A stretch of 64,000 nt of DNA. Origin: Pseudomonas rhizosphaerae (lineage in GTDB: Bacteria; Pseudomonadota; Gammaproteobacteria; Pseudomonadales; Pseudomonadaceae). Shown here piece after piece: positions 39,425-43,599 of this stretch (its first letter is position 1; each line of letters begins with the position of its first letter). The notes under the pieces were generated by a model, which was not told the DNA's origin, made no database searches, and was given only the letters and a program-made list of their open reading frames with translations. The stretch is taken from the NCBI RefSeq assembly GCF_000761155.1, contig NZ_CP009533.1, positions 3,892,001 to 3,956,000 of the forward strand, written 5' to 3'. The translations under genes and the position numbers were made by a program.

Positions 39425-40519
39425 ATGACGTCCTTCACCACCGGCGCTCAACCGCAGCCTCGCAGCCCGCAGTCCATCGGCTTCCTGTTGCTCGACAACT
39501 TCACCCTGATCTCCCTGGCCTCGGCAGTCGAACCCCTGCGCATGGCCAATCAGTTGTCCGGGCGCGAGCTGTATCGATGGACCACACTGAGCGCCGACGG
39601 TGGCCAGGTATGGGCCAGTGACGGCCTGCAGATCACTCCGGATTCGGCCATGCACAAGGCCGCACCGATGGACACGGTGATCGTCTGTGGTGGTGTGGGT
39701 ATCCAGCGCGCGGTGGGCCGTGATCACGTCAGCTGGCTGCAGAGCCAGGCGCGGCAGTCCAAGCGCCTGGGCGCGGTCTGTACTGGCAGTTGGGCGCTGG
39801 CCTGCGCCGGTCTGCTCGATGGCTTCGAGTGCAGCGTGCACTGGGAGTGCCTGGCCTCGATGCAGGAGGCTTTTCCGCGCGTGGCGATGAGTACGCGTCT
39901 GTTCACCCTCGACCGCAACCGTTTCACCAGTTCGGGCGGCACGGCGCCGCTGGACATGATGCTGCACCTGATCAGCCGCGACCATGGCCGCGAGCTCTCG
40001 GCGGCGATTTCCGAGATGTTCGTCTACGAGCGCATCCGCAACGAGCAGGATCATCAGCGTGTACCGCTCAAGCACATGCTGGGTACCAACCAGCCCAAGC
40101 TGCAGGAGATCGTCGCGCTGATGGAGGCCAACCTGGAAGAGCCGATCGACCTGGACGAGTTGGCGGTGTATGTGGCGGTGTCGCGGCGCCAGCTGGAGCG
40201 GCTGTTCCAGAAGTACCTGCATTGTTCGCCGTCGCGCTATTACCTCAAGTTGCGCCTGATCCGGGCACGGCAGTTGCTCAAGCAGACACCCATGTCGATC
40301 ATCGAGGTGGCGTCGGTGTGCGGCTTCGTGTCGACGCCGCATTTTTCCAAATGCTATCGCGAGTACTTCGGTATTCCGCCGCGTGACGAGCGCGTCGGCT
40401 CAAATACGACCCAGCAGGTGGCGATGCTGCCGATCCCTCAGGCCATGGTCTTGGCCGGACCATTGTCGGCACTGAGCCAGGCGCGCAACGAATCGACGTT
40501 TGCCAGTGTAAGAATCTGA
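39425..40519 (+). CDS. gbdR: Glycine betaine / dimethylglycine-responsive AraC-family activator GbdR
   Basis: A 364-residue regulator. The N-terminal GATase1/DJ-1-like sensing domain (residues 17-190, with IGFLLLDNFTLISLASAVEPLRMAN and GAVCTGSWALACAGLLDG) is followed by a C-terminal AraC double HTH (PIDLDELAVYVAVSRRQLERLFQKYLHCSPSRYYLKLRLIRARQLLKQTPMSIIEVASVCGFVSTPHFSKCYREYFGIPPRDER). P. aeruginosa GbdR activates betaine, dimethylglycine and choline uptake genes; neighbours here fit. The start follows TAGGAGATACCGCA. It is transcribed away from choX. Confidence 0.94.
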   Translation: MTSFTTGAQPQPRSPQSIGFLLLDNFTLISLASAVEPLRMANQLSGRELYRWTTLSADGGQVWASDGLQITPDSAMHKAAPMDTVIVCGGVGIQRAVGRDHVSWLQSQARQSKRLGAVCTGSWALACAGLLDGFECSVHWECLASMQEAFPRVAMSTRLFTLDRNRFTSSGGTAPLDMMLHLISRDHGRELSAAISEMFVYERIRNEQDHQRVPLKHMLGTNQPKLQEIVALMEANLEEPIDLDELAVYVAVSRRQLERLFQKYLHCSPSRYYLKLRLIRARQLLKQTPMSIIEVASVCGFVSTPHFSKCYREYFGIPPRDERVGSNTTQQVAMLPIPQAMVLAGPLSALSQARNESTFASVRI

Positions 40520-40671: not shown

Positions 40672-40929
40672 TCAGGCCTGCTTGAAATGCTGGGCCAACG
40701 CCGGCAGCAAGGTCCGGTCGATCGCCTGGCGGACGGCCGGCAGGATGGTCGCGCTGCCCGTCAGCATCTGTTCCACCATCTTGCGCAGGGCCTGGGCGCG
40801 GCCGCGGTCCAGGCCGCGCACTGCGCATTCACAGGCCTGCTCGGCCGTGGCGCCTGCGGGCATCTCGAAGCCCAGGGCGCGCAGCTGGCCCAGCAGGTCA
40901 TCCTGATCAATCAAGTCTGCATGCATCAT
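40672..40929 (-). CDS. Small hypothetical protein
   Basis: An 85-residue acidic/helical protein beginning MMHADLIDQDDLLGQLRALGFEMPAGATAEQACECAVRGLDRGRAQALRKMVEQML, with no signal peptide or membrane segment. An AAGGA ribosome site lies 8 bases before the first of two adjacent ATG codons. I recognise no family. It is divergent from the ATPase/HNH pair, with 158 bases between starts, and could be an accessory gene of that pair or an unrelated Pseudomonas gene. Confidence 0.55.
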   Translation of the reverse strand: MMHADLIDQDDLLGQLRALGFEMPAGATAEQACECAVRGLDRGRAQALRKMVEQMLTGSATILPAVRQAIDRTLLPALAQHFKQA

Positions 40930-41087: not shown

Positions 41088-42383
41088 ATGGCACCCAGCG
41101 ACGCCGCCCTGAATACCCTTGCCGTTCACTTTCAATGGACGGCAATGGACATGCTCGATTTTCTCTCCTTTCAGGGCGTCGGCCCTGCTTCTGCCCTGGG
41201 CCCCATCGGCCTGGCGCCACGGCTGAACTTCATCACCGGCGACAACGGCCTGGGCAAGAGTTTCGTGCTCGACACGGCCTGGTGGGTGCTGACCCGTACC
41301 TGGGCGGCGGGCAGGCCCATCAAGGCGCGCGACCAGGCCGCATTGCCGGTCATCGACTATCGGTTCACGGGTGCAGCCCACAGCGCCGGACAATGGGCCT
41401 GGCAGAAAGACCGCTGGACGCCAGTAGGGGATGTCGCCCCAAGCCGCGCGCTGGTGGTGTATGCCCACGCCAACGGCACCTTCAGCGCCTGGGACCCGGT
41501 GCGCAACGCAGGTGAACTAGCGGCCTATCATTTCGATGAGACCCAGCTGTGGCGAGGTACGCCGATGGCAGGACAGGGGCGCCTGTGCAATGGGCTGCTC
41601 AACGACTGGGTACGCTGGCAGCGAACCCACGGCTGCAAGGCATTCGCGGCCTTGAAGCAGGTCCTGCGCGCACTGTCGCCGTCGCGCGAAGAACTGTTGC
41701 TGCCCGGCCGACCGTGCCACATCGGCCTGCTGGATGAAACCGAATACCCGACGCTGCAGCGGCCTCAGGGACGGGTGCCTTTGCCCGAAACTTCCAGTGC
41801 GATCCGCCGCGTGGTGGCCCTGGCCTACATGTTGGTCTGGAGCTGGGAGGGGCATCGCCGCGCCTGCCGTCTGGCCGGTGTGCAGCCGAGCGATGAATTG
41901 GTGTTTCTGGTGGACGAGGTCGAGTGCCATCTGCACGCTCAGTGGCAACGCCGGATCGTGCCTGCGTTGATGAACGTCGTCGGCGCGCTGACCCGCCAAC
42001 GCCTGGCGGTGCAGATGATCGTGGCCACTCACTCGCCACTGGTGCTGGCTTCCATGGAGAGCCAGTTCGTCGAATCTCGCGACGCGCTCTTCACCCTGGG
42101 TTTGCAGGCCGGCGAAGTGCAGCTGCACCAGCAACCCTGGGCGCCCCAGGGTGATGCGGTGAACTGGCTGGTGTCCGAGAGCTTCGGCCTGCGCCAGGCA
42201 CGCTCGGTGGAAGCGGAAGCGGCGATTGGCGCTGCCGAAGCCTGGATGCGCGGTGAGCGATCGGGCCTGCCCGAGGGGCTGGACAGTGAAGAGGCGATTC
42301 AGACGCAGCTGCTGCAAACCCTGCCCACGGGGGATCACTTCTGGCCGACCTGGGTCGTGGCCAAGGCGGGGGTGCCAGCATGA
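41088..42383 (+). CDS. ABC-type AAA ATPase, PtuA-like candidate of a Septu-like pair
   Basis: A 431-residue cytoplasmic ATPase of the RecF/OLD-like ABC class: Walker A GDNGLGKS (51-58), a degenerate signature ETSSAIRRVVALAY (about 234-247), Walker B LVFLVDEVECHLH (271-283), H-loop VATHSPLVL (His315). No transmembrane segment or second ABC half. Its stop overlaps the start of an HNH-like gene by 4 bases, the organisation of PtuA-PtuB defence pairs. The start is uncertain: ATG 41088 or ATG 41145 (MDMLDFLSFQG), neither with a strong ribosome site. Base composition is host-like (38/60 G+C in 41221-41280). A DNA-repair or regulatory ATPase is an alternative. Confidence 0.7.
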   Translation: MAPSDAALNTLAVHFQWTAMDMLDFLSFQGVGPASALGPIGLAPRLNFITGDNGLGKSFVLDTAWWVLTRTWAAGRPIKARDQAALPVIDYRFTGAAHSAGQWAWQKDRWTPVGDVAPSRALVVYAHANGTFSAWDPVRNAGELAAYHFDETQLWRGTPMAGQGRLCNGLLNDWVRWQRTHGCKAFAALKQVLRALSPSREELLLPGRPCHIGLLDETEYPTLQRPQGRVPLPETSSAIRRVVALAYMLVWSWEGHRRACRLAGVQPSDELVFLVDEVECHLHAQWQRRIVPALMNVVGALTRQRLAVQMIVATHSPLVLASMESQFVESRDALFTLGLQAGEVQLHQQPWAPQGDAVNWLVSESFGLRQARSVEAEAAIGAAEAWMRGERSGLPEGLDSEEAIQTQLLQTLPTGDHFWPTWVVAKAGVPA

Positions 42384-43006
42384 TCGAGCTCGCTCACCCA
42401 CTGCCCGAACCCAATGGCTTCGACCAGCGCTGCCGCCAGCGCGGCAATGCCTGGTTGCAGGACAACCCGGACGTCGGCAGGCCGCGGGACTACTGGTCGC
42501 CGTTCCGCCCGGAGCTGGGCGAGGGCTTCGCCAACCGTTGCGCCTTCGGCGCCATGTACATTCCCAGCGGCACTGTGGAGCATTTCATCAGCTGTGATCA
42601 GGACCGCGGCATGGCCTACGAGTGGAGCAACTACCGCTATGTCGATGCGTGGATGAACAGTGCCAAGGGCAGCAAGAAGGCCGAGGATTTTCTCGATCCG
42701 TTCGAGGTGCGCGAGGGCTGGTTCGAGGTGCTGCTGCCGTCGTTGCAATTGGTGCTGACCGACCGGGTGCCGGAAGCGGTCAGAGCGCGGGCTGAGTACA
42801 CCCTCAAGCACCTGCCGCTGCGCGACGACGAGCGCGTGATGCGTGTGCGGCGGCAGTGGTTGCGCTTGTTCGAGGAGGGCAAGATCGGCCTCGAAGGGCT
42901 GCGCGAGATGGCGCCGCTGATTGCCGCAGCGGTGGAGCGGCGGGAAGTGCGTGGTGCAGCTTTCGCGGCCGATGACCGCTCCTACGGCCCAACCCAAACC
43001 CCGTAG
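42380..43006 (+). CDS. HNH-like nuclease, PtuB-like candidate partner of the ATPase
   Basis: A 208-residue protein. Residues 52-108 follow the HNH pattern of the TIGR02646/PtuB type: NRCAFGAMYIPSG, then VEHF with His68, AYEWSNYRY with Asn84, WMNSAKGSKK with Asn93, and the trailing LDPFEV. The Cys pairs that normally hold a structural zinc are missing: C53 stands alone where CxxC is usual, and no Cys flanks MNSAKG. It could be a zinc-free HNH enzyme or inactive. Translationally coupled to the ATPase. The last 14 codons (FAADDRSYGPTQTP) and the TAG stop come from a REP element, so the natural C-terminus has been replaced or extended. Confidence 0.6.
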   Translation: MIELAHPLPEPNGFDQRCRQRGNAWLQDNPDVGRPRDYWSPFRPELGEGFANRCAFGAMYIPSGTVEHFISCDQDRGMAYEWSNYRYVDAWMNSAKGSKKAEDFLDPFEVREGWFEVLLPSLQLVLTDRVPEAVRARAEYTLKHLPLRDDERVMRVRRQWLRLFEEGKIGLEGLREMAPLIAAAVERREVRGAAFAADDRSYGPTQTP

Positions 43007-43143
43007 GAGCGGTCCGTGGCCGCGAAGGGCGCGACGTGGTGTGTCAGGCAGACCCCAGTGCAGCTTTTGCGGCCGATGACCGCTCCTACGGTGAAACCCA
43101 AACGTCGTAGGAGCGGTCCGTGGCCGCGAAGGGCGCGACGTGG
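42959..43143 (+). repeat. REP cluster (family A), four arms, overlapping the end of the HNH-like gene
   Basis: Arms in alternating orientation: ...GACCGCTCCTAC at 42961-42985, GTAGGAGCGGTCCGTGGCC at 43003, the reverse arm at about 43066-43089, and a further forward arm at 43108. The segment between reads like the duplicated unit at 13546. The first arm is translated as the C-terminus of the HNH-like protein. Confidence 0.9.
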
Positions 43144-43146
43144 TAT

Positions 43147-43599
43147 TCAGCCGGGCAACGCAATCCGTCGCCCGGCATACTCGGCTGCAGGCTGTTGCCG
43201 CTGCGCCTCGAAAGCCTCGGCCAGGACCGCCAGCGAAGCCTCCCCGAACACCGCCGACCTCGGCCCCTGCAAATCCACATGCAACAGCATCTGCTCGCTG
43301 GCCGCCAGCACCTCGTCCGCGTTTTGCAGGTGCAGCGTGTGGTACACCTGCACCCGCTTGCGGTCATGGGCCAGCACCCGTGTGCGCACCTGCACCTCGG
43401 CCCCCAATTTTACCTCGTGCAGGTAGTTAAGGTGGCATTCCAGGGTGAACAGCGAGTGCTGGTCACGCTGCGGATCGATCCCGATGCGGGCCATGAACGC
43501 GTCGGTGGCGTAGCTGAAGATCAACAGGTAGAACGCGTCGCGCAGATGGCCGTTGTAGTCCACCCACTCCGCGAGCACGGGCGTTTGATAGGTGATCAT
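43147..43599 (-). CDS. cdhB: Betainyl-CoA thioesterase of carnitine catabolism
   Basis: A 150-residue hot-dog fold acyl-CoA thioesterase: [28 protein letters not shown] carries the 4-hydroxybenzoyl-CoA-type active-site region (the usual Asp falls in YNGH-D context), followed by [34 protein letters not shown]. It would release glycine betaine from betainyl-CoA, the last step from carnitine. Its start overlaps the cdhA stop by 4 bases, so it is coupled to the dehydrogenase; in some bacteria the two are fused. Confidence 0.88.

Follow-up and report, generated by a model that had tools for sequence, protein, structure and literature searches.

Gene content of the locus

The window (the whole 64-kb stretch of Pseudomonas rhizosphaerae DNA that was analysed) carries two overlapping genes, ptuA and ptuB, in the gap between a regulator gene and a thioesterase gene, which we take to be gbdR and cdhB, respectively. 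The features of the locus are as follows.

39425..40519, + strand: GbdR-like regulator (DJ-1/PfpI and AraC HTH domains; Pfam), upstream flank
40672..40929, − strand: conserved 85-aa protein without assigned function, divergent from ptuA (no Pfam match; 91–94% identical in the two nearest relatives)
41145..42383, + strand: ptuA, Septu ABC/SMC-like ATPase, 412 aa (PADLOC, Pfam, Foldseek)
41238..41261, + strand: Walker A GDNGLGKS (K38) of PtuA (sequence and alignment)
41898..41918, + strand: Walker B LVFLVDE (D257, E258) of PtuA (sequence and alignment)
42030..42032, + strand: H-loop His296 (THSP) of PtuA (sequence and alignment)
42380..43006, + strand: ptuB, predicted HNH-type Septu nuclease, 208 aa, 4-base overlap with ptuA
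42539..42700, + strand: HNH core of PtuB (C54, H68, N84, N93, D106-P107; alignments A2 and A4)
42581–42583, 42629–42631 and 42656–42658, + strand: catalytic-position codons H68, N84 and N93 in ptuB
42932..43139, no strand: two tandem 104-nt units with REP-like palindromes (repeat search)
43147..43599, − strand: CdhB-like 4HBT thioesterase, downstream flank, convergent with ptuB (Pfam)

An in-frame ATG upstream of ptuA, at 41088, yields a 431-aa reading. The start of ptuA is probably at 41145 (MDMLDF), since the match to the PADLOC Septu model PDLC00307 (545.9 bits, residues 22–426 of 431) opens at residue 22 of the longer reading, and many relatives begin at the corresponding MLK. PtuA also matches Pfam AAA_21, and the top Foldseek match of its predicted fold in the PDB is 8eea_C, from an E. 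coli Septu complex (E = 1.5e-14). An earlier, sequence-only reading of this DNA had proposed an ABC-type ATPase with Walker A GDNGLGKS, Walker B LVFLVDE and an H-loop, and all three motifs were confirmed; the H-loop histidine, then numbered His315, is real and becomes His296 when translation begins at 41145. Among the 32 branch PtuAs, Walker A is present with small variation in 31 (the exception is the G496 ORF, whose called start lies past the motif), and D257, E258 and His296 are kept in all 32. An ABC/SMC-like ATPase that carries all three motifs is what is expected of a type I Septu PtuA. In the window PtuA, the ABC signature (41790–41815) is degenerate, reading TSSAIRR versus ASAGMRR in several relatives.

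The ATG of ptuB (42380) sits inside the ATGA that closes ptuA (42383), giving the 4-base overlap noted before, and both ORFs are as then described; the two genes are adjacent in the ptuA–ptuB order of type I Septu. About 15 codons at the 3′ end of ptuB, including the stop, sit in the first REP-like palindrome (42962–43026), and the PtuB tails of G043 and G249 are alike in the alignment. Against the two nearest relatives, dN/dS was 0.113 and 0.116 for ptuA, and 0.081 and 0.073 for ptuB. Judged from these values, both genes are under purifying selection, which marks them as genuine genes and not chance ORFs.

Profile and structural comparison with Septu and retron I-A

PtuB matched the PADLOC Septu model PDLC00348 with 226.5 bits over residues 1–190 of 208. 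Comparison with PtuA/PtuB and TIGR02646 models had been proposed in the sequence-only reading; the PADLOC Septu models match both proteins nearly full length, whereas TIGR02646 was not matched by the window proteins at E up to 1. The NCBIfam models for retron Ec78 PtuA and PtuB (NF041760/NF041761) reached 46.8 of 500 and 13.5 of 150 bits, far under cut-off. The window PtuB had no match in Pfam, and Pfam HNH at E ≤ 0.01 was matched by only 5 of 33 branch PtuBs (28 without), all 33 of which match PDLC00348.

The ten best PDB matches of the predicted PtuB structure are all PtuB chains, from Septu or retron I-A, with modest TM-scores (0.34–0.42 by query; VIA Z < 8). A search of the PDB with a PtuB profile built from the branch alone gave, at E ≤ 0.1, 7 distinct sequences, each of them labelled as PtuB, TIGR02646 or HNH protein in a Septu or retron I-A entry; for 6 of these 7 the best stretch is the C-terminal half, outside the HNH core. 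The motifs VEHF, YEWSN, MNSAKG and LDPF, from which an HNH-like layout had been proposed, are all four present in the 208-aa protein. A fold other than HNH had been named as grounds for dropping the Septu reading; the predicted fold is that of PtuB/HNH, and together with the catalytic His and Asn positions it agrees with a type I Septu PtuB.

The pair resembles Septu type I of E. coli (structures 8ee4, 8ee7, 8eea and 8sux) in the order of the genes, the SMC/ABC-like ATPase, the HNH fold of the partner, the H-x15-N spacing and the patchy distribution, but differs in its 12–17% identity in structural alignments, the loss of PtuB zinc Cys2–4 and its site between catabolic operons. The PtuAB effectors of retron I-A (Ec78/Eco7, Ec83), a class equated with PADLOC's Septu type II (PMC8565338), likewise share the PtuA and PtuB folds and the gene order. 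The nearest solved structures include retron I-A PtuAB besides Septu, which could suggest orphan retron effectors that depend on an RT and msDNA encoded elsewhere. We regard this as extremely improbable: unlike retron I-A, the pair has no RT among its flanking genes (the neighbours are the GbdR-like regulator, the 85-aa ORF and the thioesterase gene), and no msr-msd RNA was found by Rfam in the 64-kb window, although Rfam may not cover retron RNAs. Most PtuA chains of retrons in the PDB list have 542–552 aa (one has 456), compared with the 412 aa of the window PtuA.

Zinc cysteines and catalytic residues

A zinc CxxC...CxxC motif round the HNH core is typical of Septu PtuB and, to our knowledge, does not define it. 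Alignment A2 comprises 37 PtuBs, 4 canonical and 33 of the diverged branch, the latter drawn from 12 Pseudomonas genomes, one Lentisphaeria MAG, the plasmid collection (4), one viral-contig locus and the phylum sample (15). The 15 phylum-sample proteins were picked through their PtuA, so that they were not selected on PtuB sequence. A2 and A4 do not include L065 (113-aa PtuB) or L035 (G348), and of the Azotobacter records the second (H4) was set aside.

All four zinc cysteines are present in the 4 canonical rows, whereas the window PtuB retains one of the four: Cys1 is kept as C54, and Cys2–4 are replaced by G57, D89 and M92. The earlier description of a protein lacking the zinc Cys pairs thus stands for three cysteines and fails for the first. 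Across the branch, all 33 proteins keep Cys1 and none keeps Cys2 or Cys4; Cys3, lost in the window protein, is kept in 15 of 33. H68, W82, N84, N93 and P107 are identical in all 37 aligned PtuBs, K96 is also invariant in the 33 of the branch, and an H-to-N spacing of 16 is shared by 36 of the 37. In E. coli B88 PtuB, H75 and N91 lie at the same spacing, and mutating them abolished Septu immunity; phage protection by that system needs both ATPase and nuclease residues (PMC13096335).

Judging from these alignments, we treat the missing zinc knuckle as a subfamily trait, since PADLOC still scores the branch as PtuB (33/33) and the PtuB of retron Ec78, with its first CxxC in place, shows another arrangement of the second pair in the alignment, which indicates that the knuckle is not rigid in other PtuBs either. 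Alternatively, the pair could be Septu-derived with a PtuB devoid of nuclease activity, acting by binding or decaying, so that cysteine loss equals loss of function. The loss of Cys2 and Cys4 throughout the branch and the 28 PtuBs without a Pfam HNH match would suit such a protein; we nevertheless judge it improbable, given the invariance of H68, N84, N93, K96 and P107 in 33 of 33, the ptuB dN/dS of 0.07–0.08 between nearest relatives, and a cysteine loss common to every aligned member of the branch. Knuckle-free HNH nucleases also exist, among them Cas9 HNH and the colicin DNases.

Distribution of the pair

PtuB was found at E ≤ 1e-3 in 12 of 298 Pseudomonas genomes (own included), and PtuA at E ≤ 1e-30 in the same 12, the pair of G006 being split by contig ends. 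Paired occurrence and sporadic presence, which the sequence-only reading had named as support for a defence pair, are therefore both observed. In the phylum sample, PDLC00307 PtuA occurs at E ≤ 1e-40 in 16 of 299 genomes (own included) at 17 places, and a PtuB ORF adjoins it at all 17, two of these ORFs being short (L065, 113 aa; L076, 130 aa). The plasmid collection gave PtuB matches in 5 records and PtuA matches in 6; at 4.9 Mb, the Aeromonas record among these carriers could be a chromosome. Phage records held no PtuAB match. Viral contigs held two loci, L058 of this branch and L059 of the canonical kind. A scan of genome contigs with a single protein as query gave 3 loci. An order-level scan with PDLC00348 matched 4 of 194 genomes at E ≤ 0.001, strongly (226 bits) in the own genome alone; the weak matches in G477 and G318 are four-cysteine PtuBs, and the third, in G348, lies outside the alignment. 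Among the 14 control genomes of the order-level search, Bacteroides ihuae matched.

The same genome holds a second, canonical Septu outside the window (G000:C1 3371753-3373730; L036:189-2166, L037). It is the same two-gene system and differs by its four-cysteine PtuB, which has a Pfam HNH match and is 18% identical to the window PtuB; it lies in a G+C-poorer stretch (L037, 0.554).

The genomic site

The placement between two catabolic regulons given in the sequence-only reading was correct: the site is the gbdR–cdhB gap, and the window ptuAB lies outside any visible defence island, among catabolic genes. With the cut-offs used, gbdR is present in 282 and cdhA in 258 of 298 Pseudomonas genomes. 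Among the matches listed, at least 107 genomes have both genes on one contig (G182, where they are far apart, was left out), and the two genes are convergent and 1.06–5.02 kb apart in 106 of the 107 listed; they are far apart in G050. The pair sits inside the gbdR–cdhB gap in six genomes (G000, which is the own genome, G043, G249, G101, G139 and, by contig ends, G006), and at other sites in the other six of the 12 Pseudomonas carriers. In 20 other Pseudomonas genomes, the gbdR–cdhA gap holds varied genes; the 386–387-aa protein found in 8 of these gaps we take, by eye, for a gamma-butyrobetaine hydroxylase. Other contents of these gaps (L038–L057) include a DUF2806 protein in L040 and, by eye, a PAAR-like protein in L043 and MFS-like transporters in L044 and L045.

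Universal conservation at this locus, which would have spoken for a role other than defence, was not found. A housekeeping ATPase–nuclease tied to choline/carnitine use and kept for metabolism would be in keeping with the host-like G+C and the place between two regulons, and the sequence-only reading had offered a conserved housekeeping role as its alternative. The sporadic distribution does not support that role, with 12 carriers in 298 genomes and six of them here: 286 genomes have no match for the pair, yet 282 hold gbdR and 258 cdhA. Half of the carriers have it elsewhere, and relatives lie beside BREX genes and in plasmid-collection records. We therefore consider a housekeeping role very unlikely.

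The host-like G+C reported earlier holds in the G000 lineage (ptuA 0.664 and ptuB 0.657 in G000, window 0.634), but the same-site ptuA of G101 and G139 is G+C-poor (0.52 versus ~0.60 for their loci). Between G000 and G101/G139, PtuA is 53% and PtuB 59% identical, compared with 94% for gbdR and 88% for cdhA. The G+C contrast might point to independent insertions of the window and G101/G139 copies, but the PtuA tree makes the G000 group and G101/G139 sisters (support 100/98; G006 absent, long outgroup branches), so that a single ancient insertion followed by losses, or recombination in the flanks that transferred the pair, is just as likely. No tRNA and no Rfam RNA that could point to a mobile element at the site was found in the 64-kb window, and the flanking ORFs inspected at ptuAB include no integrase. 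The tandem units that we label REP-like (42932–43139) may mark the insertion junction. These results describe the convergent gbdR–cdhB gap as a small variable site in Pseudomonas, in which ptuAB is found in 6 of 298 genomes.

Defence context of relatives

Among the chosen genes scanned, a defence-family neighbour or domain was found at 5 of the 16 non-own phylum-sample loci. In G581 (L092:2326-12084), the order is PglX–PtuA–PtuB–PglZ–BrxL, tightly packed on one strand; PglZ scores 1028.8 bits and BrxL 971.6 bits, and PglX shares 77% identity with its scanned counterpart in G562. From this arrangement, PtuAB looks like part of one BREX operon. The order in G562 is PglX, an AbiU/AIPR protein, PtuA, PtuB, a Ppl-like protein and a Schlafen/AlbA_2 protein. 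An AbiU-like protein precedes PtuAB in G545. In G565, the upstream protein shares the PADLOC matches of the G562 Schlafen-like protein, and the ORF preceding it resembles, by eye, the Ppl-like protein. In G489 (L077 / L081), a TIR domain lies inside PtuA (Pfam TIR_2, E = 5.7e-31, residues 413–533), inserted ahead of the C-terminal part, and this PtuA adjoins a knuckle-less PtuB.

Dyads of an HNH protein and an OLD-ABC ATPase are described as backup effectors in BREX loci (PMC12839542). By that description, the HNH gene is tied to an ABC ATPase, like the G581 pair between PglX and PglZ, and the window pair differs in standing alone, without BREX genes.

Two further loci have additions of their own. 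On an Allocoleopsis plasmid typed as conjugative (L060:3133-6567), branch PtuA–PtuB is directly preceded by a SLOG (YpsA) protein, whose macro-domain match falls just short of the Pfam cut-off; in G494 (L079:760-1479), branch PtuA has a 240-aa N-terminal extension without a Pfam match, common to PADLOC PDLC00270.

Discussion

The diverged Septu-like pair of the sequence-only reading is backed by the PADLOC profiles, both predicted folds and the paired, sporadic occurrence. We read ptuAB as very probably a working type I Septu module of two genes, directed against phages and belonging to a diverged branch. The system itself is not new, since both of its families are already among the Septu models of PADLOC. 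In the literature searched (titles, abstract openings and passages), we found no account of a branch-wide zinc-cysteine loss with catalytic residues retained, nor of a TIR-inserted PtuA, which is not a claim of absence from print, and no phage experiment on this branch.

By analogy with characterised relatives, PtuA oligomers would hold PtuB and restrain it; phage infection would lift this restraint, and the freed PtuB would cut nucleic acid, DNA or RNA, halting phage production at a probable cost to the cell. In this branch, the PtuB nuclease core would have to stand without the four-cysteine zinc knuckle. The target of E. coli B88 Septu is tRNA-Tyr, at its variable loop, and nicked DNA is reported for ATCC 25922 Septu. 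The chief reason for doubting that the E. coli mechanism simply carries over is the lost knuckle. More tentatively, and with a good deal of doubt, the branch (PDLC00307 and PDLC00348) might represent a separate Septu type, whose knuckle-free HNH has an altered metal need and substrate (for example, a different RNA), which serves as a lone pair or as a plug-in BREX backup effector, and in which one lineage took TIR as a second effector.

Septu pairs are counted by profile, but the mechanistic accounts that we found come from a small number of E. coli systems (B88, ATCC 25922 and retron Eco7). A branch in which H-N-N is kept and the knuckle lost in all aligned members offers a natural test of what the knuckle does, and of whether the DNA or tRNA target follows it; with a canonical and a knuckle-less Septu in one genome, the two can be set side by side in the same host.
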